64,000 bases of DNA from Antedon mediterranea (Eukaryota; Echinodermata; Crinoidea; Comatulida; Antedonidae), in NCBI RefSeq assembly GCF_964355755.1, contig NC_092680.1, positions 13,867,001 to 13,931,000 of the forward strand, given 5' to 3'. Made by a program: the position numbers and the translations under genes. This document shows positions 4,375 through 60,457 of the stretch, in pieces. The notes under the pieces were generated by a model. The model searched no databases. It was given only the letters and a program-made list of their open reading frames with translations, and was not told where the DNA came from. Each line of letters begins with the position of its first letter. Position 1 is the stretch's first letter.

Positions 4375-7300
4375 ATGTCTGCTAAAAGAAGAAAGTATAG
4401 TGGGGATGATGGTGACGCTGGTAAGTAAATTTATAAAAATCAGTCATCTGATTTACCAGATGGTTAGCCTCTAGGCCTAGGCCTAGGCCTAGCCTACTAC
4501 TAGGCTAGGCCTAGCTAGAGTAGGCCCCTCGGTCGGCCTAGTAGTAGTAGGCCTAGCCTAGCCTTAGGTAGCCTAGATAGTAAGAGAGGTTAGGCTAAGG
4601 GTGGCCTAGGCGCTACGCCTAAGCCTAGCCTGGCTAGGGTGGTAGAGGTAGTGGGACGATTAAACCCGGGACGATTCGGCACTGAAACAGTTCCAGGACG
4701 ATTTGGCCCTGAGACGATTCAGCCCGGGACTATTCGGCCCACGTTTGGTGGGACGATTCGGCTCACTTTTGTTTTGGGCCAACATCCCAAATAAATGACC
4801 AAATTCATATTCATTTTTTTTAGTATTTATCAAGTTTTTAAAGGTATGGATACCGCATGGAGGTATAAAAATAGAAGGAGAGAGCTCCCAAGATAAGCCT
4901 TTGTAGTACTGTAGTCCGCCGCCTCATAAAATTAATTGATGTCCTCCATATAGCACAGCCTGTTACGTATATGTTTTAATCCCGTCCTTCAGTCTGCATA
5001 ATGCGGTCACTTCCGGCGTAGTCGCTTCCGGGTCGCGTTCTGTGTCGTTGCGCATGCTCTGCCGATCAACGTGCTATTGTTTAATGCTAAGAGATGCGTA
5101 AAATGGCTGCTTACAGCATGGATGATTTTTATATTGGCGGAGATCTCAGCAATTTAAGCGATTTTGAAGAACTTCTAGATAACATAGAAGATACAGAAAA
5201 TAATGATGATGATGATGATGATGTTTGTATTTGTGGGCAATTAGGCACAATGGAAATGATCCTGTGTGAAAATACATCGTGTTCTGTCAAGTGGTTCCAT
5301 TATGAGTGTGTTTCTCTCACAAAGAAAACCATACCGAAAGGCAAGTGGTATTGCAAAAACTGTACGGAAGGTAAGGTACTTGCGAATATTAAGTATACCT
5401 GGGTGGTTGTTGATAAAACAGACCACCAAGTTACTATAGTAGCTAGGAATTATTAACCCCATTGACTTATGAAAAGGCCCAGGAATATACTGTAACTTTT
5501 ATTATTAACACTGGGCTAGCTAGGCCTAGCTGGTGGACTACAAACTGGCGGAGTAGCGTCAGCTAGGCAAGACAGTACGAGAGGCCAATAGTACAAATCA
5601 AGTGATATTATTTTCAAAATTACAGGTAAAGAAGTATGTACTAAAGAGAAAAATAAAGGAAAAAAATCAAAAGAAAAGACAGAAGAAACTGGGCACAAGA
5701 AAACTGATCTTACAAAAAAAACCAAAAAACAAAAAAAAGGTATTGTCGTGTACTACTACTATGCCATGGACAAGACAATTATAATTACAGTTGTTTTTTT
5801 TATTTATAGAAAACATATATTATTTTTATCTTGTTTTTAATTGAAACTAATTAAAATCTCTCATTTTATTGTTTAGTCTTGCGTCCCCCATCCTGCTTCC
5901 TTAAAGACATGGCACTCGGCAAGGCAGTGGATTTTGTCATTACGACACTTAAAGACATACCAAATAAGCCAATTTACAAGCTGCAATTGCAAAATACAAA
6001 GGAGATAAGACGTATAGCTTCTATACTATTTGAAAAACAGGGAGATACAAAATTTAAGCGTTTCAGTGAAACGACTATAGGAAAGCTGTGGAACTGCATC
6101 GAGTTCAGCCGCACAAAGTATTTATCAGTAGAAGCAGACAATGAAATGTGGCGCTCTTTTCATTTTGTGAAAATTAGTACAATCGATTCCTGGCATGTAT
6201 TACTTGCAGAAATGGAAATCCAATTTACAACCATACCAGCTAATATTTTATACCAAGAGCTTCTTTTAGATCTCATGAAATTACTTATATCGGAAAGTAA
6301 CAGGGTCAACAACACCAGTGATGATGTTGCTGCAAGTCCTATAATTTTGACAAAAGATGAAGAGGAAATTTTGAGGTACCTTGCCGGGTATATTCCACAT
6401 GCACTATTGAAACGCTACAGAAAATTACCAAACAATATTACAGCATCAGCTTTTACAACAGAATTATTAATGTGGAAAGAGCAGAAAGAAATTGAGTCAA
6501 CTTCATTTTATGCATACACTCATGCTTGGATCAGTAAACAGAATCGTGGTGGACTGTTTCAAGTAAACGACAAAGTGTTCCTACTATTTCGAGAACTGGA
6601 GGTTGTGTTCCAAGAACATGTTACAGGAAAGACTTTGTCCCAAATGAAAGGTGTAAATTTGAATAATCTATTAATGGGCAAACTACAGCAGAACAGAAAA
6701 GTTGATAGATGTTGGTGTGCAGTTATTAATGGAAGATTGCAAGAAAGACTATCTTTAGAATTGCAACAAAAAGTATATAGGTACTGGATAAAGATTAGGA
6801 GTAAAGCTTTTGTTAAAGTCTATCTAGACCTACAGAAAAAGAAAGATGCATCATCAGTATCTGGCAAATGTGAAAAAGCACTTCGTAAAACATTGCATAA
6901 AAACTAGTACTGTATTTATTTAGAACCTTTGATCAAAGTGGTAATAAACATTACACATTTATAATATTCTGTATACCCCATAACATCAATACCAGCCTAC
7001 TCCAGAGTTACTGCAATTTTTTTTTGTATAATCATATAAAGTAATTAAAAATAAAAAGTTCAATAAATAAATAGTAATGCGATTCATTTCTGTCCTTTGT
7101 GTAGTGGCGTTGAATCTAAATAGTTATTACTACTTGTTGATGATTTGCAGTTGGCCTTTTTGGAGGCACGTACACAATTACCAGCAACATGAAGTACCAT
7201 CATGTTGTGGCCAAACTGTTCAATAGTTGGATTATCGTATGATCGACCTACTCCTCTCTGTTTGCTGAAATACTCTTCAAGTGGGTCTTGATTGAGTTTT

Positions 7301-10300
7301 TCGCTTAAGATGTACTTTGCCCCGGAACACAGCAACTGCCGACTCAGTTGGACAAATGAACGAACTAGAAGATAACAATTTATTGTAACATGATTATATA
7401 TTAATTTATAAGACAAGATCTGATAACATTTTACTTATGCAATCACAATCATGATTAGCTGTTTTTATGAAACTCACCTGTCATGCGTATACCATAAACA
7501 GTCGCATCGCTAAGACACATCTTCTTCTTTTGTGCATTTGATACATATGGCAGCGTTCTTACTTCCTCTTCCCATTCATCAAAGAATGAAAGAAATTCCC
7601 CCTCGAGCCACTAAATAAATAGAGTTTTTATAGACAAAACAGGTTACATTATACCACATAATCATGCTGTAGGTTGGTCAATTTGATTCAATATCCCTTG
7701 AAAATAACTTACCTCAAATCTCCAATCATCAACGGATGTATATGGTACAAGAGTTGGCTTAACACTTTTGGTAGGGTTCCATGGCTTAGAAACATTCAAG
7801 CAGTCAAAAAACCGATCAAGGAAGCGTACAAATTTTTGTGTTGATTTTGTGTCAGTTCTGCCCTGTGCTTCTAAAGCATTAGCTACTGATGTACTCAAAA
7901 CCTGTTAAAATTACAATAAAATAAGGATATGTTGACATAAAGATTTCCAACCAGAACCGCATTTTTCCAGATTGACAGTTGTAGAAAGTTACTGTACCTG
8001 TACTGCCATGTGCACTTTCATTCGATGAGAAGAAGACAGGTGTAGATGCTCATAAGTAATTTTGTTTAACCGCCTTAGTCCAATACTATTCCGCTTGTCT
8101 AATCCTGTGTCCCATTCATACAGTTTTAGTAGCTGCGTCCATGTAATATCCTGTTTGTTAAACTGAGAGGTAAAATTGTAATGTATTAATCAATTGTTCA
8201 TTTGTGAGTTCTATCTATATTTTGATTATGTCTGGTCAATCCTGATTGTCAAATAATAATTTAATAATAACAGGTTGTTATTAATTAATTTTTTTTGGAG
8301 TAAAAACACTTACATGTAGATTTCTTGTCTTGTTATGATAGTTGGAGTTCTCCCAATTATTTCTAGCCGTTTTCATCAGATGTGGTGCATCACTGATAAA
8401 AAACAGTCGTCGGTGAGGATCAACAGGATGTGTTGTATAGAAAGTCACTCCATCAGTGCATACTTCAGTGCTTGAATGCAAAGTGAAGAACTTTCTATTT
8501 GGAGCGGCTCCATCACAAACAAATGCTTGGACACGTAATCCCAATGCTTCCAATACATTAACTGCTTCACTTATGATGGGATACAAGGACCTACTACCAA
8601 TACCTTCTGTTGGGTAATAGGATATTGGTGTAAGCAGTGACCCACAAATGCTTCTCGCCATTAACACCAAAACATGTGTGGCTAGACTAGCATCATTGCT
8701 GCCATTGCAACGTGCCTCAAAGTCTGCAATGTCATTCGATATGTCCCCAACATCTGTGTAGCCAACTAGCTGTCCGCTTCCAACATTGAACACTAGACCG
8801 GACTTCACCTTCATCTCATCAAATAATATCGAAACATCACGTTCATAATCAGAGATTTGCTCAATCCGCAAGTCACTAAATACTCTATTTAAAAATTCAT
8901 CACTGATCCCAGCGATAGGTGTTGCAAAGTGGGTGTATTTTTTTAATGTTTTTAAATGTGGTAATTTCAAAAAACCACTGTCTCTTAGCAACTCATAACC
9001 AGATGTGGATTTTGAACTTAATGCAATACACCACCGAATTATTGCTGGATGCCAACGCATTTGTTTGTTTTTTTCATAAGCCTCTTTTTGTTGTTTCCAC
9101 AACAACTGAGCTGCTGGTTTATCTTCCAGTAGTTTTTCAGCAGATTGAAAGCGAGTTAATGTCTCACCTAGCAACTTGGCCTGAGTTTCTGTGATTGCGG
9201 TCGCCTCCTTACTGATGACATCACATATTTTGTCTTGTAGAAGATTGCTTCGCCTTTTCAGACTTTTGTTTTGCTGTTTTAACAGATGTGCCTTGCGACT
9301 AAGTTCGCACTTTGATAGGAGATCATTTCTTACAGATGATGACAATACATCACTAACACTGGAACTTGCTCTTTGTTTGTTAACCAAAGACATCAAATCA
9401 CTGCGATGCACTTTACAAGGAAAGCAACGGCCCTCACTTTCAATCAATACATGACAATTTATATGCCTTGTATTAGTCTTGCTTACCAAATCTATGTCTG
9501 TGTTTCCAGCACAATAGGTCATATTTGACACAGCGCATATCAACTTAACAATATCTTCAGAATTCAAATTCTTGCCAAAGCTCTGAAGATGACCCTTCTT
9601 ACTCACTGGCTTTTCATAGGCGTATACTTCCCAACAACCCTCATCACTTACAGAAATACATTTGCTAGCTTGACCGCACTTATTGACAATTGCAAAAACA
9701 TGGAAATTCTCATCAATACAACTACCAAACCCAAGTTTTGCTGCATACATTTGGACTTCACTCCAGTTGATTTTTAACTCTGGGCTGCCATTATCTTTAA
9801 ACTCGGCAAGCTGAATGTTTAATAAAACCTTTTTGTTCCGCTTGGCTTTATCCCACCACCTTCTTAAAGATCGAACACAAATCTCACATATGAATTCTGG
9901 AAAACAATCATTGTCATCACTGATGTCAATATTGAAAGCACGTTGAATTTGCAATTGAAATCTACCTTTCTTGTAGGCATCGGTTTGTGTTACTCTGCTA
10001 ACACCACAAAGCCTGCAACAATTATTCATATCTTTTTCTTTCTGTTTCCTAAGTCAAAAAGAAAAATAATTAATTAAATTACTGTACTGAATGTATGCAT
10101 ATTTAATAATATAAAACTGCATGAATAAGTTAATGTATGCCTGGCCATACATTATAATCATTATATTAGACCTATGAGTATTTAAACATTTAATAATATT
10201 ACATTATTATTAATAATATTAAGCTATTTTATATGCCTAGCCTAAATAAATTTTAAAACAAATCATAAATTTAATTGCCTGGTCCTAATTAATGATAATA

Positions 10301-13300
10301 AAATAAGTCTGTGTACTGTGTAGGCCTAACTACCTGGGAATATGATATAGCCTAGACTATGCTTATAAATAATAATTAATAATATAGGCCTAGCCTTAGT
10401 AGAGTAGCCTAGCTACTAAGCTAGCCTGTCTCTTTTATTAGTAGTGAAACTAGGCCTCTAAAGAGAGAATAGTAATAGTATAATAAATTCTAGGCATATA
10501 GTTAGGGCCTAGCCTAGATTTTATATTCATTATGCTACCCCGACCCTAGCCTAAAAACCTAAATATGCTAGGCCTAATCACTGTTTTGTAATCGAATACC
10601 CCCACATTCATTCTTAACAAACCCGCGAAAAAGCCTTCTTTATTTTCGTCAATATCTTTGGACGGTCATCGTTGGCAGCCCAGCGACTAACGTAAAAGTA
10701 TAAAGCAATAACCATACCTTATTCACACAAAATGACAGCTGTCTGACGGCGTATATTAATATTTTATCGTAAAAATATATATTGCATAAACAGCAATAAA
10801 ATATCAATGATAATTATAATAGAAACTTGATAAAATTCGCTTAAAATGTCGTACGTAATCGTGTTTGGTATCAATATTTAGGTAATTTTAAGCGGGAAAC
10901 GAAAATGTTGATTGCGCAATAATTATATCACAAACAATAGCACTGCGCATGCCAAAAGTATATGTGTTTGTTTGTGTTTATTCGAGGCTCTGACCTCCTC
11001 TACAATAGAGGGCTGAACTAGAGCGGCGGCTAACCTTGGTGAGAAAGGGCTTCCTGCTACCGCCGCGGGCTGTCGGTACAAGGCTTCGGCTTTGAAAATA
11101 TCATATCGCACATCCTGTTAATTGGATTAAGCAGATTACATACATTCGAGCTCTCTCCTTCTATTTTTATACCTCCATGGATACCGAGAGCTGACTCCAT
11201 TTTCATTACCACGATTAAACAGAGCGCACGTTACTATGCGCGCAATGTCAATGTCAATGTGTTTTTCTACTTTGGTAAACACTTTTTATTAGTTTGGGCC
11301 TAGGTCATTATTCTGAAAATAAATTAATTATGAAAATATCCTTTTGAGTGAATATTTATTTACCTTCGAGGCTCACTCACTCCATGGTTCTGGTGGTAGA
11401 ACGAGTCTTCTCGGATTAGGACTAAAACCGTAGGTCCAGTGTACACATCTAGCTCGTGTGCACTTTAAAGAACCTAGTACATCTTTCGAGACGAGTAGGG
11501 GGTTACCCCGGTGTATTAGTACATCACAGCCACTGATCACCAACTGGGCCCTCTGGGAGACCAGCCTTTGACTGAAGAGGTTACCCAGTATAAATATAAA
11601 CTTCAATTCAATTCAATTCAACCTATTATTCTATAAGATCAAGTATTTTTTATTTCCATTTCATTCAACCAAACATGAGAATATAGCCTAGTGGTTAAAA
11701 GATCATCATCGTCTAGCGAAACCATCGGAAGGCTGAATGACCTACCATTTTCAACCTTGTTTTTGTAGTTGAGACTCTTATGACCTAAAAATGTTTTTCT
11801 TCCTACACCAAGATAATATAGTTCCACATACCATGTGCTTGTTTTAAGTGCTAAAAAAACCGGTTTTATCCCGATATGAGGCCTTTATGATTCGAATATT
11901 TCATAGTAACAACCAATATACCATGAAAAATAATTTTTGGAAAATTCCAAGGGGCTCAACTACAAAAACGCCATTTTGTGGTATGATGTCATCGTAAGCC
12001 AATCAAACCTCCGCTTTCGACCGCTTCGCAGGGCTCACGCTTGAACAATTTTGGATTCCCGCCCTTTGATTGGTTGACGCGAATCAACACACAGCGGAGA
12101 AATTTTCCCGCGAGTGCCGTGAAGTCACGTGGGCTCAGGTCTGTCCAATTACACCGGAAAATAATGCATTGAAATTCTTCGAATGAGGTTAAAATATAGT
12201 CATTTACCGGTATATATTTTAATTAATTGTATTTGTGGATTTTAACATCGAAATCAATCATCTTTGTATATACAATGTAAACTATATCAAGTTATGGTAC
12301 CTGTTTTTAACAATGTATCATAAATTAGCGAAAAAACATGTTTAACCGATTCACCACGATAAGTGCTTAAAGCGCTCATGAGGTTAAAAGTCAAGGTCAT
12401 TGTAAACAAATTATCAACAAATAAAAAGTAAATCGAATTTACATGTGCAGTGTGATGTGCATGATTCGTGACAATAAATTATACAAAATACTCACAACAA
12501 CAGTACAGTACAGTTTTGTTCCTCTCACTGATGCCAGTCGCATCCAAGAGGCAGTCTTCTCTATCATCCGAATATATGCTTGGTCCGACTGTTAAGGGTT
12601 TCCTTGACTGGGTTAGCTTTTTAGCTTGACTAGGATCGCACTGGAGGAGATTGCTTAATTTAATCCAGGGGTCACGATAGTATGGTTTTCGGGCTTGTGC
12701 AAAGAGCATTCGTTTTGTTAATGAGTTACTTGGTTCTTGACAGATATAGGCTATGTACTTCAGGTAGTGAAAATATGCTTCTAAATATATAAAAACAATT
12801 GTTGAAGTTATGGGCATGAAATATTTTTCAAACTCTGCGCAAAGGTCAGTTTGTTGAAGTATAACTTTTGATAAACATTTTGATACCAAACTTGTTTTGG
12901 TTTCATAAGTTTCCGATGCATTTTCATCTAATTTTCTGCAAGCTACACATCTAAAATAGCGGACTAAGGCTATGTTTAGACCCATGGCGTTAGACCGTTT
13001 TACCGTACATTGTTACGGGCAAGGTAATCGAATAAAATCAATCAATATTATACGTCTTATTTTATTGAATTTTAAATATTTCCCCTGCCTACAGTACTGT
13101 CTCATCTTCTGATGATTGAATATGATAGTAATAAGTTATTTATATAAAGTAATTGATGTAATTTTATTTATCGATAGGGCCATTTAGTAAACGAAGGAAA
13201 TCTGTCCATGATGAAATTGAAGAAAGACTTGAATCGCTCATCACAAGGGTTGGCGAGAAGGTAAAAATAGTTTTTTCTTAAAGTATTTGATATCAATAAA

Positions 13301-28300: not shown

Positions 28301-31300
28301 CGAACTGAGAACTTTCTGCTTGTTATGTACTAGATCACTGGGGCTTTCATGATATTGTTTAAACTCGATTGGATATTGACTCTTTAATGATATATTGGAT
28401 TCATGGTAAGGGAGAGTGAAAGTCCCTGTCATCTAATAGGACACTATTATTATCTACAATACTATCCAAATTACATCTACCCTTGCATGCATACTGGCCG
28501 CGGAAAATATTTAGAAAAAAAGTGTGTTAATATTCCGCGATTATGTAACTGTTAGCAGCTACTTCGAATCGGACCTCACGTACAGCATGCTCCAGTGATC
28601 TTCGAAGATGTGTTGAACAAAAGGTCATGGAGCTAGATCATTATGTAAACCTTGACACGCCCATTCATTCATAATTTAAAACAAAAGATTCCAACTGTAT
28701 TATTTGATAAACAATAATTGCGCTGGAGCATGCTGTACGTGAGGTCCAATTCGAAGTGGATGGTTATTTTAGGTAATTAATATATTGATATAACACAATC
28801 ATACATTTCTATTCCTTTGACTGTATTTGAATATCAATCTTTAAAAGAAGCCCAGCGGGCTTGATTCGAGACTCAAGATTACTTTTTGCAAACTAGACCT
28901 CAAGATAGGTTTTACTGTACGGTATACTAAATATACTTGTTATATTGATCAATGTTGTTATATTGTTTAATATATAGGACTCTGATATTAGTGACAGTGA
29001 AGAAGATATGGATGCCACAGAAACCCATCTGGAGGGTCTGCAGGAAAGCTTAGAATCTGCTCAGAGTGACCAGAAGAATATGTTTCTTATTATATTTCAG
29101 GTTAGTCATTTTTACTAATCTAATTGCAAATTGTTAGCACAGTAGTTCAATCTCTGGAATTTTACTTCTTGTTGTATGTGTCCCCGACAAAAGGCTAAAG
29201 AATGAGTGAATACCATTAAGCCTGGTTTCTACTAGCCAAATTTAGTCTGTGAATCCAGTGTTTTTGCAGGAAGCAAATTTGCCCTTTTTACCACAAGAAC
29301 GATAGCTGCAATCTTTGTGTCTGCGGAGCTTTATGATTTGCATAAGTACTCATGAACACATAACTCATTTCCTGAGTTCTTATTGGTTTGCAAAATTGTT
29401 CACTTTGAAAAGTAGAAATATCAAGTTCTCTGAAGCAAACAACTCAAGTAACTAGAATTCATCAAGAGAAATTGATAATGGAAGATGAAAATATGAATTT
29501 GCTCGGTCTGAGCTGGAATCTTCCATTCGTCTTGTGGAATACAGGAGCAATTTAGAATGTTTAGATGAGATGGAAACTATGCCCACTTTGTATAATTACT
29601 TACCCGTTAGTACCACCGAGCAGCATAATTACTTACCCGTTAGTACCACCGAGCAGCATAATTACTTACCCGTTAGTACCACCGAGCAGCATAATTACTT
29701 ACCCGTTAGTACCACCGAGCAGCATAATTACTTACCCGTTAGTACCACCGAGCAGCATAATTACTTACCCGTTAGTACCACCGAGCAGCATAATTACTTA
29801 CCCGTTAGTACCACCGAGCAGCATAATTACTTACCCGTTAGTACCACCGAGCAGCATAATTACTTACCCGTTAGTACCACCGAGCAGCATAATTACTTAC
29901 CCGTTAGTACCACCGAGCAGCATAATTACTTACCCGTTAGTACCACCAAGCAGCATAATTACTTACCCGTTAGTACCACCGAGCAGCATAATTACTTACC
30001 CGTTAGTACCACCGAGCAGCATAATTACTTACCCGTTAGTACCACCAAGCAGCATAATTACTTACCCGTTAGTACCACCGAGCAGCATAATTACTTACCC
30101 GTTAGTACCACCGAGCAGCATAATTACTTACCCGTTAGTACCACCAAGCAGCATAATTACTTACCCGTTAGTACCACCAAGCAGCATAATTACTTACCCG
30201 TTAGTACCACCGAGCAGCATAATTACTTACCCGTTAGTACCACCGAGCACCATAATTACTTACCCGTTAGTACCACCGAGCAGCATAATTACTTACCCGT
30301 TAGTACCACCGAGCAGCATAATTACTTACCCGTTAGTACCACCGAGCAGCATAATTACTTACCCGTTAGTACCACCGAGCAGCATAATTACTTACCCGTT
30401 AGTACCACCGAGCAGCATAATTACTTACCCGTTAGTACCACCGAGCAGCATAATTACTTACCCGTTAGTACCACCGAGCAGCATAATTACTTACCCGTTA
30501 GTACCACCGAGCAGCATAATTACTTACCCGTTAGTACCACCGAGCAGCATAATTACTTACCCGTTAGTACCACCGAGCAGCATAATTACTTACCCGTTAG
30601 TACCACCGAGCAATTCATGTGTAGATTTCTTTGTATTCATTCATTTTGTTTTGTTTGTATGTGTTCTGTAATATTTTTATATTTTAGTAATGTCCATTGA
30701 AATGCTCCTTGATTGTGTCTAAGTATTTTTTTCTCGGACGTCCTTTCTTTTTTTTTCCATTAATTTATTGCTGTTAAACGTAACTCTTCTCATTACATGG
30801 CCGAGAATCTAAGTTGTCTTCGCTGTACACTGTTTATTAATTTTCTTGTTGTAGTTCTTTGCAACACTTTTATATTATTTTGCTGGTGATCAATTATGTT
30901 AACTCCACCTTTCTTAGGTGGATTCTGATTATTTGTTTGTTTTGTTGCTTACCTTCTTGGTGTTAATTTTATCAAATTTGTTATATGTCTTAATAGAGAA
31001 TTGAATTGATCATTTGAAATATGTGCAAACCAATGAGGAATCTTCAGAACTCTCCTTAAAAACTACATCTCTGCTGCTTCTAACCTATTTCTTATGGCAT
31101 TGCTTATTGTCCATGTTTCACAACTATACAGTAAGGTTGTCCACACATACGTTTTTAACACACAGTCTAATTTACATGAAAATCTTTTCACATTTTAAAA
31201 TACTCTTTCGTTTTTTGTATGCATTCTTTGCAATGGCAATTATGGCCATAATTACTGTATTACACTTTCCGCCGGCTGTGTTAATGCGTCAAAGGTATTT

Positions 31301-36338: not shown

Positions 36339-36486
36339 AAAAAAAAATTCTTTTCTTTAAAATTTGCACAGTGAGAAAGGCTTGGTTGAAACATTACATG
36401 GACATATAAAACTAGAAAGCCACTCCCAAGAGTACATACCTCCATCTACTGTAAAAATGTCCTACATAAGATTTCTCCAGAAAAAT

Positions 36487-38352: not shown

Positions 38353-39345
38353 TTTTTTTTTCTCTTTTGTGGCGCAAACACCACTTTTATTCACATTCAT
38401 ATTATCTCATATTACATAAAATCGTATTATTTAACTTGTAAATGTCGTTACAGTTCATAAGTAACATTTTTACATATATGAATTCTGTATTACTCCTTTT
38501 TTCATTAATTTTCGTATATTTTGTTATACACTTGACAGGATCATCATTGTCATCTATCCCGTTTTAAAATAGTTCACACATTTTCATTTGTTTGTTTTCA
38601 TTTTACAACCCGGATTATACAATATATTTATATACATGATAAAAAAAAACAATAATAACTCAGTACCACCAGTAACCCGTATCACTGTAATTCTTTTTCG
38701 GTTAATCGTATCAAATTAGAAATTATATTATCATAATCTTATTTCTTAAAGCTACCCATTTTTCTATACTTGTTTCTTTATTGTTATATGTTTCACATTC
38801 AATGTTATATAACATATTGCTTTTAAATGAATTCCATAAAGATTTACCCACTGGCTTATTTAGTGCAGATAACATTTTTATTCTATAAATAGTAAATGCT
38901 GCAAAAGTGTAAATATAATCTATTAGCTTATCTCCCGTTCCTAGTATTAATTGTTTAAATGATATATTATTGTGATTTAAACTTACAAAGATACTAAGCA
39001 TTTTCCTCCAATATTTCTGAATAAATCTACAAATAAAAAACAAATGATTTTCATTTTCAATTTCTCCACATTTGTCACACGTTTGTGTTTCCTTAACTTT
39101 CCACTGATACAGCCGTTTGTTGGTAGGCAGTATTCTATGTAACATCTTATAATTGAATTGTGCTAGTTTCTTATCTTTCATTTTACATACTTTCCGTAAC
39201 CAAGAAGTTTTCCAATCAATGTTGTTATCATTGAAGTACTCTTCCCATTTTAGTTGTGACATTGGAATAATGAAATATTCTTTCACAAACCATGAGTATA
39301 TTAGTTTGGTAGTATTAATCTCATACTTGGTCCCAAGATGTTAAG
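38353..39345 (-). pseudogene. 3' end of an L1/Tx1-like LINE (RT C-terminus), 5'-truncated
   Basis: An open stretch (38723-39345) encodes the C-terminal part after the reverse transcriptase: KKLAQFNYKMLHRILPTNK, then a zinc-knuckle-like C-x2-C-x7-H-x4-C (CDKCGEIENENHLFFIC). About 370 bp of 3' UTR follows, ending in a poly-A run (T-run at 38353-38361). The RT catalytic core and endonuclease are missing: a dead 5'-truncated copy. Confidence 0.75.
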
Positions 39346-39854: not shown

Positions 39855-42800
39855 TCAAGAGCATCTTGATTGTTTACTACTTGTTACAAGAGCACCTTGA
39901 TTATTTAATACTTGTGGCAAGAGCACCTTGATTGTTTACTACTTGTTACAAGAGCACCTTGATTATTTAATACTTGTGGCAAGAGCATCTTGATTGTTTA
40001 CTACTTGTGGCAAGAGCACCTTGATTGTTTACTACTTGTGACAAGAGCACCTTGATTGTTTACTAATTGTGGCAAGAGCACCTTGATTGTTTACTACTTG
40101 TGGCAAGATCACCTTGATTGTTTACTAATTGTGGCAAGAGCATCTTGATTGTTTACTAGTTGTGGCAAGAGCACCTTCATTGTTTACTTCTTGTGGCAAG
40201 AGCACCTTAATTGTTTACTACCTGTGGCAAGAGCACCTTGTTTGTTTACTACTTGCAGCAAGAGCATCTTGATTGTTTACTACTTGTGGCAAGAGCACCT
40301 TGATTGTTTACTACTTTTGGCAAGAGCATCTTGATTGTTTACTACTTTTGGCAAGAGCATCTTGATTGTTTACTACTGGTGGCAAGATCACCTTGATTGT
40401 TTACTACTTGTGGCAAGAGAATCTTGATTGTTTACTACTGGTGGCAAGATCACCTTGATTGTTTACTACTTGTGGCAAGAGAATCTTGATTGTTTACTAC
40501 TTGTGGCAAGAGCATCTTGATTGTTTACTACTTGTGACAGTAGCATCTTGATTGTTTACTACTTGTGGCGAGAGCATCTTAATTGTTTACTACTTGTGAC
40601 AAGAGCATCTTGATTGTTTACTACTTGTGGCAAGATTACCTTGATTGTTTACTACTTGTGGCAAGAGCATCTTGATTGTTTACTACTTGTAGCAAGAGCA
40701 TCTTGATTGTTTACTACTTGTGGCAAGAGCACCTTGATTGTTTACTACTTGTGGCAAGAGCACCTGGATTGTTTACTACTTTTGGCAAGAGAACCTTGAT
40801 TGTTTACTAGTTGTGGCAAGAGCACTTTCATTGTTTACTTCTTGTGGCAAGAGCACCTTCATTGTTTACTACTTGTGGCAAGAGCATCTTGATTGTTTAC
40901 TACTTGCAACAAGGGCATCTTGATTGTTTACTACTTGTGGCAAGAGCATCTTGATTGTTTACTACTTGTGGCAAGACCACCTTGATTGTTTACTACTTGT
41001 GACAAGAGCACCTTGATTGTTTACTACTTGTGGCAAGAGCATCTTGATTGTTTACTACTTGGGGCAATAGCACCTTGATTGTTTACTACTTGTGGCAAGA
41101 GCACCTTGATTGTTTACTACTTGTGGCAATAGCACCTTGATTGTTTACTACTTGTGGCAATAGCACCTTGATTGCTTACTACTTGTTGCAAGAGCACCGT
41201 GATTGTTTACTACTTGTGGCAAGAGCATCTTGATTGTTTACTACTTGTGGCAAGAGCATCTTGATTGTTTACTACTTGTGGCAATAGCACCTTGATTGCT
41301 TACTACTTGTGGCAAGAGCACCTTGATTGTTTACTATTTGTGGCAAGATCACCTTGATTGTTTACTACTTGTGGCAAGATCACCTTGATTGTTTACTACT
41401 TGTGGCAAGAGCATCTTGATTGTTTACTACTTGTGGCAAGAGCATCTTGATTGTTTACTACTTGTGGCAATAGCATCTTGATTGTTTACTACTTGTGGCA
41501 AGAGCATCTTGATTGTTTACTACTTGTGGCAAGAGCATCTTGATTGTTTACTACTTGTGGCAATAGCATCTTGATTGTTTACTACTTGTGGCAAGATCAC
41601 CTTGATTGTTTACTACTTGTGGCAAGAGCATCTTGATTGTTTACTACTTGTGACAGTAGCATCTTGATTGTTTACTACTTGTGGCGAGAGCATCTTAATT
41701 GTTTACTACTTGTGGCAAGAGCATCTTGATTGTTTACTACTTGTAGCAAGAGCATCTTGATTTTTTACTACTTGTGGCAAGAGCACCTTGATTGTTTACT
41801 ACTTGTGGCAAGAGCACCTTGATTGTTTACTACTCTTGGTAAGAGAACCTTGATTGTTTACTAGTTGTGGTAAGAGCACTTTCATTGTTTACTTCTTGTG
41901 GCAAGAACACCTTCATTGTTTACTACTTGTGGCAAGAGCATCTTGATTGTTTACTACTTGCAACAAGAGCATCTTGATTGTTTACTACTTGTGGCAAGAA
42001 CATCTTGATTGTTTACTACTTGTGGCAAGACCACCTTGATTGTTTACTACTTGTGACAAGAGCACCTTGATTGTTTACTACTTGTGGCAAGAGCACCTTG
42101 ATTGTTTACTACTTGTGGCAAGAGCACCTTGATTGCTTACTACTTGTTGCAAGAGCACCGTGATTGTTTACTACTTGTGGCAAGAGCATCTTGATTGTTT
42201 ACTACTTGTGGCAAGAGCATCTTGATTGTTTACTACTTGTGGCAATAGCACCTTGATTGCTTACTACTTGTGGCAAGATCACCTTTATTATTTACTATGT
42301 GTGGCAAGATCACCTTGATTGTTTACTACTTGTGGCAAGAGCATCTTGATTGTTTACAACTTGTGGCAAGAGCATCTTGATTGTTTACTACTTGTGGCAA
42401 GAGCACCTTGATTGTTTACTACTTGTGGCAAGATCACCTTGATTGTTTACTACTTGTGGCAAGAGCATCTTGATTGTTTACTAGTTGTGACAAGAGCACC
42501 TTGATTGTTTACTACTTGTGGCAATAGCATCTTGATTGTTTACTACTTGTGACAAAAGCACCTTGATTGTTTACTAGTTGTGGCAAGAGCATCTTGATTG
42601 TTTACTACTTTTGGCAAGAGCATCTTGATTGTTTACTACTTGTGGCAAGATCACCTTGATTGTTTACTACTTGTGGCAAGATCACCTTGATTGTTTACTA
42701 CTTGTGGCAAGAGCATCTTGATTGTTTACTACTTGTGACAGTAGCATCTTGATTGTTTACTACTTGTGGCGAGAGCATCTTAATTGTTTACTACTTGTGG

Positions 42801-45800
42801 CAAGAGCATCTTGATTGTTTACTACTTGTGGCAAGATTACCTTGATTGTTTACTACTTGTGGCAAGAGCATCTTGATTGTTTACTACTTGTAGCAAGAGC
42901 ATCTTGATTCTTTACTTCTTGTGGCAAGAGCATCTTGATTGTTTACTACTTGTAGCAAGAGCATCTTGATTCTTTACTTCTTGTGACAAAAGCACCTTGA
43001 TTGTTTACTACTTTTGGCAAGAGCATCTTGATTGTTTACTACTTGTGGCAAGATCACCTTGATTGTTTAATACTTGTGGCAAGAGAATCTTGATTGTTTA
43101 CTACTTGTGGCAAGAGCATCTTGATTGTTTACTACTTGTGGCATGAGCACCTTGATTGTTTACTACTTGTGGCAAGATCACCTTGATTGTTTACTACTTG
43201 TGGCAAGAGCATCTTGATTGTTTACTACTTGTGGCAAGATCACCTTGATTGTTTACTACTTGTGGCAAGAGCATCTTGATTGTTTACTACTTGTGGCAAG
43301 AGCATCTTGATTGTTTACTACTTGTGGCATTAGCATCTTGATTGTTTACTACTTGTGGCAAGATCACCTTGATTGTTTACTACTTGTGGCAAGAGCATCT
43401 TGATTGTTTACTACTTGTGACAGTAGGATCTTGATTGTTTACTACTTGTGGCGAGAGCATCTTAATTGTTTACTACTTGTGGCAAGAGCATCTTGATTGT
43501 TTACTGCTTGTGGCAAGATCACCTTGATTATTTACTACTTGTGGCAAGAGCATCTTGATTGTTTACTACTTGTGGCAAGAGCACATTGATTTTTTACTAC
43601 TTGTGGCAAGAGCACCTTGATTGTTTACTAGTTGTGGCAAGAGAACCTTGATTGTTTACTAGTTGTGGCAAGAGCACTTTCATTGTTTACTTCTTGTGGC
43701 AAGAGCACCTTCATTGTTTACTACTTGTGGCAAGAGCATCTTGATTGTTTACTTCTTGCAACAAGGGCATCTTGATTGTTTACTACTTGTGGCAAGAGCA
43801 TCTTGATTGTTTACTACTTGTTGCAAGACCACCTTGATTGTTTACTACTTGTGACAAGAGCACCTTGATTGTTTACTACTTGTGGCAAGAGCATCTTGAT
43901 TGTTTACTACTTGGGGCAATAGCACCTTGATTGTTTACTACTTGTGGCAAGAGCACCTTGATTGTTTACTACTTGTGGCAATAGCATCTTGATTGTTTAC
44001 TACTTGTGGCAAGATCACCTTGATTGTTTACTACTTGTGGCAAGAGCATCTTGATTGTTTACTACTTGTGACAGTAGCATCTTGATTGTTTACTACTTGT
44101 GGCGAGAGCATCTTAATTGTTTACTACTTGTGGCAAGAGCATCTTGATTGTTTACTACTTGTGGCAAGATTACCTTGATTGTTTACTACTTGTGGCAAGA
44201 GCATCTTGATTGTTTACTACTTGTAGCAAGAGCATCTTGATTTTTTACTACTTGTGGCAAGAGCACCTTGATTGTTTACTACTTGTGGCAAGAGCACCTT
44301 GATTGTTTACTACTCTTGGCAAGAGAACCTTGATTGTTTACTAGTTGTGGTAAGAGCACTTTCATTGTTTACTTCTTGTGGCAAGAACACCTTCATTGTT
44401 TACTACTTGTGGCAAGAGCATCTTGATTGTTTACTACTTGCAACAAGAGCATCTTGATTGTTTACTACTTGTGGCAAGAACATCTTGATTGTTTACTACT
44501 TGTGGCAAGACCACCTTGATTGTTTACTACTTGTGACAAGAGCACCTTGATTGTTTACTACTTGTGGCAAGAGCACCTTGATTGTTTACTACTTGTGGCA
44601 ATAGCACCTTGATTGCTTACTACTTGTTGCAAGAGCACCGTGATTGTTTACTACTTGTGGCAAGAGCATCTTGATTGTTTACTACTTGTGGCAAGAGCAT
44701 CTTGATTGTTTACTACTTGTGGCAATAGCACCTTGATTGCTTACTACTTGTGGCAAGAGCACCTTTATTATTTACTATGTGTGGCAAGATCACCTTGATT
44801 GTTTACTACTTGTGGCAAGAGCATCTTGATTGTTTACAACTTGTGGCAAGAGCATCTTGATTGTTTACTACTTGTGGCAAGAGCACCTTGATTGTTTACT
44901 ACTTGTGGCAAGATCACCTTGATTGTTTACTACTTGTGGCAAGAGCATCTTGATTGTTTACTAGTTGTGACAAGAGCACCTTGATTGTTTACTACTTGTG
45001 GCAATAGCATCTTGATTGTTTACTACTTGTGACAAAAGCACCTTGATTGTTTACTAGTTGTGGCAAGAGCATCTTGATTGTTTACTACTTTTGGCAAGAG
45101 CATCTTGATTGTTTACTACTTGTGGCAAGAGCACCTTGATTGTTTACTACTTGTGGCAAGATCACCTTGATTGTTTACTACTTGTGGCAAGAGCATCTTG
45201 ATTGTTTACTACTTGTGACAGTAGCATCTTGATTGTTTACTACTTGTGGCGAGAGCATCTTAATTGTTTACTACTTGTGGCAAGATTACCTTGATTGTTT
45301 ACTACTTGTGGCAAGAGCATCTTGATTGTTTACTACTTGTAGCAAGAGCATCTTGATTGTTTACTTCTTGTGGCAAGAGCACCTTAATTGTTTACTACTT
45401 GTGGCAAGAGCACCTTGTTTGTTTACTACTTGCAGCAAGAGCATCTTGATTGTTTACTACTTGTGGCAAGAGCATCTTGATTGTTTACTACTTGTGGCAA
45501 GAGCATCTTGATTGTTTACTACTTTTGGCATGAGCACCTTGATTGTTTACTACTTGTGGCAAGATCACCTTGATTGTTTACTACTTGTGGCAAGAGCATC
45601 TTGATTGTTTACTACTTGTGGCAAGAGCATCTTGATTGTTTACTACTTGTGGCATTAGCATCTTGATTGTTTACTACTTGTGGCAAGATCACCTTGATTG
45701 TTTACTACTTGTGGCAAGAGCATCTTGATTGTTTACTACTTGTGACAGTAGGATCTTGATTGTTTACTACTTGTGGCGAGAGCATCTTAATTGTTTACTA

Positions 45801-48800
45801 CTTGTGGCAAGAGCATCTTGATTGTTTACTGCTTGTGGCAAGATCACCTTGATTATTTACTACTTGTGGCAAGAGCATCTTGATTGTTTACTACTTGTGG
45901 CAAGAGCACATTGATTGTTTACTACTTGTGGCAAGAGCACCTTGATTGTTTACTAGTTGTGGCAAGAGAACCTTGATTGTTTACTAGTTGTGGCAAGAGC
46001 ACTTTCATTGTTTACTTCTTGTGGCAAGAGCACCTTCATTGTTTACTACTTGTGGCAAGAGCATCTTGATTGTTTACTTCTTGCAACAAGGGCATCTTGA
46101 TTGTTTACTACTTGTGGCAAGAGCATCTTGATTGTTTACTACTTGTTGCAAGACCACCTTGATTGTTTCTACTTGTGACAAGAGCACCTTGATTGTTTAC
46201 TACTTGTGGCAAGAGCATCTTGATTGTTTACTACTTGGGGCAATAGCACCTTGATTGTTTACTATTTGTGGCAAGAGCACCTTGATTGTTTACTACTTGT
46301 GGCAATAGCACCTTGATTGTTTACTACTTGTGGCAAGAGCACCTTGATTGTTTACTACTTGTGGCAATAGCACCTTGATTGCTTACTACTTGTTGCAAGA
46401 GCACCGTGATTGTTTACTACTTGTGGCAAGAGCATCTTGATTGTTTACTACTTGTGGCAAGAGCATCTTGATTGTTTACTACTTGTGGCAATAGCACCTT
46501 GATTGCTTACTACTTGTGGCAAGAGCACCTTGATTGTTTACTATTTGTGGCAAGATCACCTTGATTGTTTACTACTTGTGGCAAGATCACCTTGATTGTT
46601 TACTACTTGTGGCAAGAGCATCTTGATTGTTTACTACTTGGGGCAATAGCACCTTGATTGTTTACTACTTGTGGCAAGAGCACCTTGATTGTTTACTACT
46701 TGTGGCAATAGCACCTTGATTGTTTACTACTTGTGGCAAGAGCACCTTGATTGTTTACTACTTGTGGCAATAGCACCTTGATTGCTTACTACTTGTTGCA
46801 AGAGCACCGTGATTGTTTACTACTTGTGGCAAGAGCATCTTGATTGTTTACTACTTGTGGCAAGAGCATCTTGATTGTTTACTACTTGTGGCAATAGCAC
46901 CTTGATTGCTTACTACTTGTGGCAAGAGCACCTTGATTGTTTACTATTTGTGGCAAGATCACCTTGATTGTTTACTACTTGTGGCAAGATCACCTTGATT
47001 GTTTACTACTTGTGGCAAGAGCATCTTGATTGTTTACTACTTGTGGCAAGAGCATCTTGATTGTTTACTACTTGTGGCAATAGCATCTTGATTGTTTACT
47101 ACTTGTGGCAAGATCACCTTGATTGTTTACTACTTGTGGCAAGAGCATCTTGATTGTTTACTACTTGCGGCAAGATTACCTTGATGGTTTACTACTTGTG
47201 GCGAGAGCATCTTAATTGTTTACTACTTGTGGCAAGAGCATCTTGATTGTTTACTACTTGTGGCAAGATTACCTTGATTGTTTACTACTTGTGGCAAGAG
47301 CATCTTGATTGTTTACTACTTGTAGCAAGAGCATCTTGATTTTTTACTACTTGTGGCAAGAGCACCTTGATTGTTTACTACTTGTGGCAAGAGCACCTTG
47401 ATTGTTTACTACTTTTGGCAAGAGCACCTTGATTGTTTACTACTTGTGGCAAGAGCATCTTGATTGTTTACTACTTGGGGCAATAGCACCTTGATTGTTT
47501 ACTACTTGTGGCAAGAGCACCTTGATTGTTTACTACTTGTGGCAATAGCACCTTGATTGTTTACTACTTGTGGCAAGAGCACCTTGATTGTTTACTACTT
47601 GTGGCAATAGCACCTTGATTGCTTACTACTTGTTACATTGTTTACTACTTGTGGCAAGAGCACCTTGATTGCTTACTACTTGTGGCAAGAGCACCTTTAT
47701 TATTTACTATTTGTGGCAAGATCACCTTGATTGTTTACTACTTGTGGCAAGAGCATCTTGATTGTTTACTACTTGTGGCAAGAGCACCTTGATTGTTTAC
47801 TACTTGTGGCAATAGCACCTTGATTGCTTACTACTTGTTGCAAGAGCACCGTGATTGTTTACTACTTGTGGCAAGAGCATCTTGATTGTTTACTACTTGT
47901 GGCAAGAGCATCTTGATTGTTTACTACTTGTGGCAATAGCACCTTGATTGCTTACTACTTGTGGCAAGATCACCTTTATTATTTACTATGTGTGGCAAGA
48001 TCACCTTGATTGTTTACTACTTGTGGCAAGAGCATCTTGATTGTTTACAACTTGTGGCAAGAGCACCTTGATTGTTTACTACTTGTGGCAAGAGCACCTT
48101 GATTGTTTACTACTTGTGGCAAGATCACCTTGATTGTTTACTACTTTTGGCAAGAGCATCTTGATTGTTTACTACTTGTGGCAAGAGCACCTTGATTGTG
48201 TACTACCTGTAGCAATAGCACCTTGATTGCTTACTACTTGTGGCAAGAGCACCTTGATTGTTTACTACTTGTGGCAAGAGCACCTTGATTGTTTACTACT
48301 TTTGGCAAGAGAACCTTGATTGTTTACTAGTTGTGGCAAGAGCACTTTCATTGTTTACTTCTTGTGGCAAGAGCACCTTCATTGTTTACTAATTGTGGCA
48401 AGAGCATCTTGATTGTTTACTACTTGCAACAAGAGCATCTTGATTGTTTACTACTTGTGGCAAGAGCATCTTGATTGTTTACTACATGTGGCAAGACCAC
48501 CTTGATTGTTTACTACTTGTGACAAGAGCACCTTGATTGTTTACTACTTGTGGCAAGAGCATCTTGATTGTTTACTACTTGGGGCAATAGCACCTTGATT
48601 GTTTACTACTTGTGGCAAGAGCACCTTGATTGTTTACTACTTGTGGCAATAGCACCTTGATTGTTTACTACTTGTGGCAAGAGCACCTTGATTGTTTACT
48701 ACTTGTGGCAATAGCACCTTGATTGCTTACTACTTGTTACATTGTTTACTACTTGTGGCAAGAGCATCTTGATTGTTTACTACTTGTGGCAAGAGCATCT

Positions 48801-51800
48801 TGATTGTTTACTACTTGTGGCAATAGCACCTTGATTGCTTACTACTTGTGGCAAGAGCACCTTGATTGTTTACTATTTGTGGCAAGATCACCTTGATTGT
48901 TTACTACTTGTGGCAAGAGCATCTTGATTGTTTACTACTTGTGGCAAGAGCATCTTGATTGTTTACCACTTGTGGCAATAGCATCTTGATTGTTTACTAC
49001 TTGTGGCAAGATCACCTTGATTGTGTACTACTTGTGGCAAGAGCATCTTGATTGTTTACTACTTGTGACAGTAGCATCTTGATTGTTTACTACTTGTGGC
49101 AAGACCACCTTGATTGTTTACTACTTGTGGCAAGAGCATCTTGATTGTTTACTACTTGTGGCAAGATCACCTTGATTGTTTAATACTTGTGGCAAGAGAA
49201 TCTTGATTGTTTACTACTTGTGGCAAGAGCATCTTGATTGTTTACTACTTGTGGCATGAGCACCTTGATTGTTTACTACTTGTGGCAAGATCACCTTGAT
49301 TGTTTACTACTTGTGGCAAGAGCATCTTGATTGTTTACTACTTGTGGCAAGATCACCTTGATTGTTTACTACTTGTGGCAAGAGCATCTTGATTGTTTAC
49401 TACTTGTGGCAAGAGCATCTTGATTGTTTACTACTTGTGGCATTAGCATCTTGATTGTTTACTACTTGTGGCAAGATCACCTTGATTGTTTACTACTTGT
49501 GGCAAGAGCATCTTGATTGTTTACTACTTGTGACAGTAGGATCTTGATTGTTTACTACTTGTGGCGAGAGCATCTTAATTGTTTACTACTTGTGGCAAGA
49601 GCATCTTGATTGTTTACTGCTTGTGGCAAGATCACCTTGATTATTTACTACTTGTGGCAAGAGCATCTTGATTGTTTACTACTTGTGGCAAGAGCACATT
49701 GATTTTTTACTACTTGTGGCAAGAGCACCTTGATTGTTTACTAGTTGTGGCAAGAGAACCTTGATTGTTTACTAGTTGTGGCAAGAGCACTTTCATTGTT
49801 TACTTCTTGTGGCAAGAGCACCTTCATTGTTTACTACTTGTGGCAAGAGCATCTTGATTGTTTACTACTTGTGGCAATAGCATCTTGATTGTTTACTACT
49901 TGTGGCAAGATCACCTTGATTGTTTACTACTTGTGGCAAGAGCATCTTGATTGTTTACTACTTGCGGCAAGATTACCTTGATGGTTTACTACTTGTGGCG
50001 AGAGCATCTTAATTGTTTACTACTTGTGGCAAGAGCATCTTGATTGTTTACTACTTGTGGCAAGATTACCTTGATTGTTTACTACTTGTGGCAAGAGCAT
50101 CTTGATTGTTTACTACTTGTAGCAAGAGCATCTTGATTTTTTACTACTTGTGGCAAGAGCATCTTGATTGTTTACTACTTGTGGCAAGAGCACCTTGATT
50201 GTTTACTACTTGTGGCAAGATCACCTTGATTGTTTACTACTTGTGGCAAGAGCATCTTGATTGTTTACTAGTTGTGACAAGAGCACCTTGATTGTTTACT
50301 ACTTGTGGCAATAGCATCTTGATTGTTTACTACTTGTGACAAAAGCACCTTTATTATTTACTATGTGTGGCAAGATCACCTTGATTGTTTACTACTTGTG
50401 GCAAGAGCATCTTGATTGTTTACAACTTGTGGCAAGAGCATCTTGATTGTTTACTACTTGTGGCAAGAGCACCTTGATTGTTTACTACTTGTGGCAAGAT
50501 CACCTTGATTGTTTACTACTTGTGGCAAGAGCATCTTGATTGTTTACTAGTTGTGACAAGAGCACCTTGATTGTTTACTACTTGTGGCAATAGCATCTTG
50601 ATTGTTTACTACTTGTGACAAAAGCACCTTGATTGTTTACTAGTTGTGGCAAGAGCACCTTGATTGCTTACTACTTGTTGCAAGAGCACCGTGATTGTTT
50701 ACTACTTGTGGCAAGAGCATCTTGATTGTTTACTACTTGTGGCAAGAGCATCTTGATTGTTTACTACTTGTGGCAATAGCACCTTGATTGCTTACTACTT
50801 GTGGCAAGATCACCTTTATTATTTACTATGTGTGGCAAGATCACCTTGATTGTTTACTACTTGTGGCAAGAGCATCTTGATTGTTTACAACTTGTGGCAA
50901 GAGCATCTTGATTGTTTACTACTTGTGGCAAGAGCATCTTGATTGTTTACTACTTGGGGCAATAGCACCTTGATTGTTTACTACTTGTGGCAAGAGCACC
51001 TTGATTGTTTACTACTTGTGGCAATAGCACCTTGATTGTTTACTACTTGTGGCAAGAGCACCTTGATTGTTTACTACTTGTGGCAATAGCACCTTGATTG
51101 CTTACTACTTGTTACATTGTTTACTACTTGTGGCAAGAGCATCTTGATTGTTTACTACTTGTGGCAAGAGCATCTTGATTGTTTACTACTTGTGGCAATA
51201 GCACCTTGATTGCTTACTACTTGTGGCAAGAGCACCTTGATTGTTTACTATTTGTGGCAAGATCACCTTGATTGTTTACTACTTGTGGCAAGAGCATCTT
51301 GATTGTTTACTACTTGTGGCAAGAGCATCTTGATTGTTTACCACTTGTGGCAATAGCATCTTGATTGTTTACTACTTGTGGCAAGATCACCTTGATTGTG
51401 TACTACTTGTGGCAAGAGCATCTTGATTGTTTACTACTTGTGACAGTAGCATCTTGATTGTTTACTACTTGTGGCAAGACCACCTTGATTGTTTACTACT
51501 TGTGGCAAGAGCATCTTGATTGTTTACTACTTGTGGCAAGATTACCTTGATTGTTTACTACTTGTGGCAAGAGCATCTTGATTGTTTACTAGTTGTGACA
51601 AGAGCACCTTGATTGTTTACTACTTGTGGCAATAGCATCTTGATTGTTTACTACTTGTGACAAAAGCACCTTGATTGTTTACTAGTTGTGGCAAGAGCAT
51701 CTTGATTGTTTACTACTTTTGGCAAGAGCATCTTGATTGTTTACTACTTGTGGCAAGAGCACCTTGATTGTGTACTACCTGTAGCAATAGCACCTTGATT

Positions 51801-51885
51801 GCTTACTACTTGTGGCAAGAGCACCTTGATTGTTTACTACTTTTTGCAAGAGCATCTTGATTGTTTAATAATTGTGACAGCAGCA
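39855..51885. repeat. 12-kb tandem array of a 31-bp unit (~388 copies)
   Basis: Units read about GAGCATCTTGATTG, then TTTACTACTTGTGGCAA. Common variants are CATC/CACC, GAG/GAT/TAG, GGC/GAC and ACTTG/AGTTG. Most units contain TTGTTTAC and an imperfect dyad CAAGA-GCA-TCTTG. Copies are diverged but organised in larger blocks: about 41700-42790 recurs at 44180-45270, offset exactly 2,480 bp (80 units). A few units are broken, for example a deletion variant with TTGTTACATTG at 47632, 48738 and 51110. Short ORFs inside, such as those at 40149 and 44272, are periodicity artefacts. Confidence 0.97.
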
Positions 51886-56560: not shown

Positions 56561-57330
56561 AAATAACATGTGATTATTTATGTTTTCTATGGGCCATAGC
56601 GGCTCTTTAATGAAAATAGGTCAAACATTTGGTCCCAATAGGCTGGCCCATACAGGAAAAAGATGCCTTAACACACAGGATTCTAAAATAACCCAAATGA
56701 ACCTTTTGGGATCTCTATATGGTGAGCTACATAAGGCCCTTCCTGGGACTATTAGGAATCAATATGGGGTACAGTTCATAGATTGAACTACAGTATATTG
56801 CAATAAAACTAAATGTGAACCCTTGATCTTTAAAGAATATGTTAAATGGATTTGCCCAAATGAACCCAAGGGCCAATCCGTCATGGACCTTTCATGGAAC
56901 AGTTTCCCGTTTGCCGGGAACTAATACAAATATTGTGCCTTCTCTGTAGTGTCCATAATATTTTTTAATAAAAAGTGCCTCGTGTCTCGAAGTGGCTGCT
57001 ACACCTCCCTGTCTGGTTTGTATACAACTGACCCCTTCCCCCCTCCCCTCTCAAGAAAATGTAACAAAGAGAATGCCTACAAAGTATTTTTTCAATGAAT
57101 TTAAGGTTTCAGTTTTGCGTTTTTGTACTCAATTTAACCATGGATTTATAAGTCCATGGATACAAGAGTGATGTTCTGTACATATGGTATCTGGTATTTA
57201 AAAGTTTTAGTATTAATCACATACTAACTATGAATTGTGAATACATTTTAATTTATAATTTAATCACAATAATTATCTTGTTTTGATCGAAACACTCTAT
57301 TGTCATATGAGCTGTTTTGGTTTCTGTTTT

Positions 57331-60300: not shown

Positions 60301-60457
60301 AGTTCCTAGTTTACTACAGACTTCATAGTAGACAACAAGTATTTAAGTTCCTAGTTTACTACAGTCTTTATAGTAGACAACAAGTATTTAAGTTCCTAGT
60401 TTACTACAGACTTCATAGTAGACAACAAGTTTTTAAGTTCCTAGTTTACTACAGACT
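57331..60457. repeat. 45-bp tandem array, ~69 copies
   Basis: Highly homogeneous units containing AAGTTCCTAGTTTACTACAG and CTTCATAGTAGACAACAAG. One position, CAG(A/T)CTTC, is dimorphic and alternates irregularly along the array. Rare changes: two 44-bp units (near 57541 and 59431), AGAAAACA twice, TTTATAG twice. The frame KFLVYY(S/R)LHSRQQVF stays open except at the two 1-bp deletions. It lies in what should be intron 1 of the STAP-like gene, so coding is doubtful. Confidence 0.96.

Follow-up and report, generated by a model that had tools for sequence, protein, structure and literature searches.

A P-type transposon of the crinoid Antedon mediterranea whose transposase may be divided between two convergent genes

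Why would a P-type transposon carry a second gene? This question is raised by a 64,000-nucleotide stretch of the Antedon mediterranea genome (contig NC_092680.1, positions 13,867,001 to 13,931,000; hereafter the window), in which a P-like element of 6,324 bp (4856-11179) holds a transposase gene and, converging on it, a gene coding for a protein with a PHD finger. A sequence-only reading of the window had described this second gene as a PHD-finger gene and had matched the C-terminal 340 residues of its product to no family. Our results show that about 170 of these residues (111 aligned) correspond to the C-terminal domain (CTD) of P transposases, the very domain that the catalytic gene lacks. 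We propose, with a probability of roughly 0.7, that the element encodes a bipartite P-like transposase whose two subunits act in trans and whose PHD finger takes part in targeting. The ends, duplications, gene models, domain content, loss of the CTD from one gene, its presence on the other and the recurrence of the pair were computed directly, and from these we infer the assembly of the two chains, their need for each other, histone binding and targeting.

A transposase probably divided between two genes

The predicted catalytic-subunit gene lies on the minus strand and has five coding exons (Table 1). The full-length transposase of the earlier reading does splice without a frame break, its length being 827 aa and not 823. 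Profile matches were obtained for the TNP-like RNaseH_N (E 9.1e-24), for the GTP-binding insertion domain GBD (E 4.3e-15) and for RNaseH_C, the last with an E of 1.5e-4 that falls just under the cut-off in the whole protein and over it when the exon is used alone; the comparison with 6p5a gave an E of 1.9e-17. Motif alignment with the relatives places a putative catalytic triad at D404, D506 and E764. Judged by its sequence, then, the element has a P-superfamily catalytic core, made of a TNP-like RNase H and a GTP-binding insertion. The P-type helix-turn-helix matched eight of nine proteins, all under the curated cut-off (best E 7e-4; window protein 0.035). At the N-terminus there is a ZAD/RAG1-N-like zinc domain (residues 1-67), followed by a second Cys/His cluster (188-205), and no THAP domain was detected in nine transposases or in seven other open reading frames of the element that were scanned. 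A Foldseek search with the N-terminal model returned nothing under E 0.001, the ZAD chain 6fp5_B standing at rank 35 (E 0.82); the RAG1 chain 21wb was absent from the structural matches, which is uninformative either way.

The catalytic profile aligns to residues 322-773 of P0020 and then stops, the CTD match starts near residue 823, and no CTD was found within the catalytic protein. Two complete relatives, P0012 from Acanthaster and P0013 from Patiria, finish in the same short tail, with DSTPL; the other six relatives in the transposase alignment are truncated and uninformative on this point. Profile comparison locates the absent CTD on the opposing gene, within exon 3, at model residues 156-323 (about 6341-6844). 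Between single sequences the relation of the partner to P0020 is weak (E 0.026), and it becomes visible once profiles are used. The stop codons of the two genes are 176 bp apart and, because the genes are on opposite strands, ordinary splicing could not rejoin the two pieces.

The plus-strand gene, a predicted model of three exons and 473 codons, agrees with the convergent, ING-type PHD gene described from the letters, with GT/AG borders throughout. The NCBI model P0001 from Antedon mediterranea (380 aa) is 100% identical to its product over the aligned 61%; compared with 5094-6907, P0001 splices exon 1 to an acceptor further on and so lacks about 90 residues, a difference that is due to alternative splicing or to an error of the model. 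No kelch domain was matched in the partner protein, Foldseek with its model gave nothing under E 0.001, and a scan of viral contigs with alignments of both proteins yielded no relative.

Table 1. Positions of the features of the Antedon mediterranea P-like element within the window
Feature	Position	Strand	Remarks
Left target site duplication	4849..4855		GATACCG, 7 bp; sole exact flank match among lengths 4-11 bp
Left terminal inverted repeat	4856..4887	+	32 bp, CATGGAGGTATAAAAATAGAAGGAGAGAGCTC; 100% complementary to 11148-11179
CTD-subunit exon 1	5094..5370	+	acidic N-terminus, ING-type PHD finger; profile E 1.7e-12 vs YNG1
CTD-subunit exon 2	5626..5739	+	lysine-rich linker; GT/AG borders
CTD-subunit exon 3	5877..6907	+	helical region, then P-transposase CTD match
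Catalytic-subunit exon 5	7084..7364	-	RNaseH_C with putative E764, short tail, stop; no CTD
Catalytic-subunit exon 4	7478..7610	-	predicted coding exon
Catalytic-subunit exon 3	7713..7901	-	GTP-binding insertion domain
Catalytic-subunit exon 2	7998..8162	-	GTP-binding insertion domain
Catalytic-subunit exon 1	8314..10029	-	ZAD/RAG1-N-like zinc domain, second Cys/His cluster, coil, putative helix-turn-helix, RNase H with putative D404 and D506
Right terminal inverted repeat	11148..11179	-	32 bp; 100% complementary to 4856-4887
Right target site duplication	11180..11186		GATACCG, 7 bp; sole exact flank match among lengths 4-11 bp

Recurrence and mobility of the gene pair

A search for further copies with both genes, as the sequence-only reading had proposed, was made in 354 Mb of genome (18 contigs, the window lying on C11). 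The counts rest on coding-sequence queries, so that copies devoid of coding sequence fall outside them; the CTD query gave at least 18 matches and the transposase exon-1 query at least 39. Thirteen partner loci besides the window were examined (L009-L021). At ten of them the partner is accompanied by a piece of the transposase, convergent every time, with overlapping pieces in L017; at L018, L020 and L021 no such piece was seen. When the count starts instead from the transposase query, the CTD gene adjoins the transposase tail in 10 of 13, window included, and in 14 of 17 once the CTD-query loci L013, L014, L015 and L019 are added, loci that are biased toward CTD presence; these tail counts cover the rows examined for a partner and omit fragments without a visible tail. 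At the three remaining loci (C11:17.61 Mb, C10:11.20 Mb and C11:14.82 Mb) no partner was seen within about 3.3-3.7 kb past the tail.

The copies fall into several families. L011 (C3) and L012 (C6) have both genes and are 99.46% identical over 6.49 kb. Their family B relatives L013:4962-8101 (C11) and L014:1904-5033 (C1) are internally deleted to 3.1 kb and 99.5% identical, with 36-bp ends and 7-bp duplications of their own; they have kept the CTD gene (with one internal stop) and the transposase tail and mostly lost the rest, and may be non-autonomous or have a repressor-like effect. L009 and L010, whose pieces are 92-97% alike, form a third family. Family D comprises L028 (C8), L029 (C1) and L030 (C3), 98-99.6% identical, and a fourth copy made up of L039 with L053; its frames are a transposase of 794 codons and a convergent CTD gene of 329 codons. 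Since the proteins of families B, C and D are only about 30% identical to those of the window, the two-gene layout must be old. Synonymous and nonsynonymous changes were too few to be informative, both in family D (partner 0 to 1-3; transposase 4 to 2, with none between two copies) and in the family B partner (1 to 0, 6 to 5 and 7 to 6). Separately, a fragment at C10:11276587-11277145, which matches 730 bp from the N-terminal part of the window transposase at 89% DNA identity, is the closest family A relative among the genome matches listed.

The element group has probably moved recently in the Antedon genome. The perfect inverted ends and the target duplication reported earlier for the window were both recovered, at the coordinates given there, and a duplication of exactly 7 bp was found in six of the six elements examined that have both ends intact, the other five being GTAAAAC (L013), GTGAAAT (L014) and, in family D, GTTTATA, CGGACAC and GCTAGCT. 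No two of the six are alike, the pattern expected of independent insertions. Copies whose two ends are not both intact were left out of this count, namely L011, where no right end was found, L012, which has lost its outer bases on the left, L009, for which the ends were not determined, L010, with 17-bp ends but no duplication, and other broken loci. In L010, the inverted repeat 1966/8742 was considered as the element end and rejected, no duplication being seen. The ends of families A and B start CATGGAGGTATAAAAA and those of family D start CTGAGACAACAATC. As 8-bp target duplications are described for Drosophila P and zebrafish Pdre2 (in the accounts of PMC7776569 and PMC10983969), the 7 bp found here mean that the stagger differs in this group.

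Three lone end-like sites (CATGGA/AATGGAG..TATAAAA) occur elsewhere in the window, at 36397, 52498 and 63229. No convincing second end was found for any of them, and in the one pairing inspected, 36397 with 52498, the flanks do not match; they are perhaps the ends of a related short family.

What the second protein may do

In our proposal the element is intact, transposes by cut and paste and combines a P-type core with a bipartite transposase, the linker of a P-type enzyme offering an easy point for division into two chains. The catalytic subunit would bind and pair the transposon ends, the CTD subunit would dock in trans and complete the complex, and the PHD finger would tether the target-facing CTD part to histone H3 tails, thus biasing the landing site; either subunit by itself would be inactive. 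The CTD of the Drosophila P transposase is positioned at the junction of transposon end and target. A shortened P protein without the C-terminal third is described as unable to catalyse transposition and able to repress it (PMC7776569, in its treatment of that protein).

A PHD match N-terminal to the CTD was obtained for the window and for eight of the 13 partner loci (L009-L015 and L017), being weak in L015 (E 4.7e-4) and restricted to residues 21-74 in L013 and L014; L016 and L018-L021, whose partner is incomplete, gave none. In the family D copy on C8 no PHD was detected, the 700 bp before the frame included, and this family has the same two-gene split, so the PHD finger is not what defines the system. 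The relatives P0004, P0005 and P0006, the last of them from Lytechinus pictus, also start without a PHD, and may be incomplete models. The split occurs with or without the PHD finger, which seems to have been added in some families. The window, L009-L012 and Anneissia P0003 retain the full zinc-ligand pattern, as does P0002 (also Anneissia) with a wider last spacing. At the presumed positions of the aromatic cage, the window PHD keeps M and W and has V for Y; the cage W is L in P0003 and the cage M is T in family B.

It is possible, if not the view we favour, that the two proteins cooperate and the PHD finger only dimerises or stabilises its subunit, without reading H3K4me3 or targeting chromatin, which is compatible with our proposal minus its last step. 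The family D copy examined has no detectable PHD, and the replacements at the presumed cage positions in P0003 and family B point the same way, but the retention of the zinc-ligand pattern described above and the fact that the profile match goes to ING-type readers argue for a reader.

We consider it unlikely that the second protein is an accessory factor or regulator (a target selector or a repressor) derived from a CTD and that the catalytic protein works alone. The three tail-bearing loci without a visible partner would fit this explanation, as would L013 and L014, which retain the CTD gene but little of the transposase, a state that a derivative carrying a repressor might show. However, the partnerless loci are fragments or interrupted copies, the catalytic protein is without a domain that is present in the P transposases compared, and the pair has been retained across families that share only about 30% of their protein sequence.

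That a single element picked up the PHD gene from its host by chance, a single-copy capture being what the earlier reading had named as fatal to its claim, is highly improbable and was rejected because the pair recurs at other genome loci: just one protein named as Antedon appeared in the protein search, but the C-terminal domain of the PHD protein is a transposase domain, transposase pieces adjoin ten of the 13 other partner loci, and Anneissia has two diverged paralogs.

Turning to known systems, the bipartite transposase that we propose shares with canonical P and THAP9 proteins (Drosophila P, Pdre2) an RNase H core interrupted by a GTP-binding insertion, the D/D/E motifs and a CTD of the same fold. 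The ends of Drosophila P begin CAT(G). So do those of families A and B, and those of Pdre2 as given in PMC10983969. In contrast with canonical elements, which have a THAP domain, one protein that includes the CTD and an 8-bp duplication, here there is a ZAD/RAG1-N-like zinc domain, a CTD on a separate convergent gene that in some families also bears a PHD, and a 7-bp duplication. The earlier description as a P-superfamily element thus stands as regards its intactness, its P-type core and its two convergent genes; since the THAP domain, the single CTD-bearing protein and the 8-bp duplication are lacking, we class it as a bipartite group built on a P-type core, apart from canonical P. The RAG-like transposons (ProtoRAG/RAGL), as PMC7204232 portrays them, have convergent genes for a transposase and a PHD protein, RAG1 N-terminal zinc motifs, a kelch-bearing RAG2 and 5-bp duplications. 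Like the Antedon element, they have convergent genes between inverted ends and zinc motifs at the transposase N-terminus, and they occur in echinoderms; a PHD finger is present in many of their partner proteins (PMC7204232, in the same description), and in the element here it is N-terminal. They differ in belonging to the Transib superfamily, in their kelch domain and in their 5-bp duplication, as against the P superfamily, no kelch found and 7 bp here. Because the catalytic superfamily differs and no kelch domain was found, the element is not RAG-like, and the resemblance is one of arrangement only, not of descent. Among DNA transposons, Rehavkus, related to MULEs, has a PHD finger too, but the finger lies inside the transposase, in a single gene, and the duplication is of 9 bp, according to the entry in PMC6446971. 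The zinc domain here resembles the RAG1 N-terminal 'Chapa' domain of Chapaev and TransibSU, whose catalytic superfamilies are other than P. In the open-access literature searched, we found no two-gene P element, and a Repbase entry may exist. More tentatively, and at somewhat less than even odds, these elements could form an animal transposon clade beside canonical P, with an obligate two-protein transposase that arose when the CTD was severed from the catalytic chain, a 7-bp stagger, a crinoid fusion of CTD and histone reader that yields a separate subunit for target selection, and a RAG1/RAG2 layout (RAG1-N-like zinc domain on the catalytic protein, PHD on its partner, genes convergent) reached by convergence or by module exchange with RAG-like elements.

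If the split holds, it provides a single natural system in which to study how such a transposase is assembled and aimed. The role of the CTD, hard to test in Drosophila P, where it is part of a single chain, becomes testable by adding or omitting one protein, as nature seems to have separated it, and a PHD finger on the CTD subunit would connect target choice directly with a histone mark, in a way open to experiment. The parallel with RAG1/RAG2 bears on the origin of two-gene, PHD-bearing recombinases and on the travels of the RAG1 N-terminal zinc domain. If functional, the pair would be a small two-part enzyme for gene delivery.

Other features of the window

Outside the element, the window holds a 12-kb satellite array of 31/93-bp units (39856-51876), about 70 copies of a 45-bp satellite in an array whose frames stay open for 636 and 344 codons (57329-60457), and a 33-bp repeat of 31 copies, 99% alike, with two frames open (403 and 368 codons; 29592-30612). 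A minus-strand frame at 38723-39340 has a zf-RVT domain (E 5.4e-8) and is probably the remnant of a long interspersed nuclear element.
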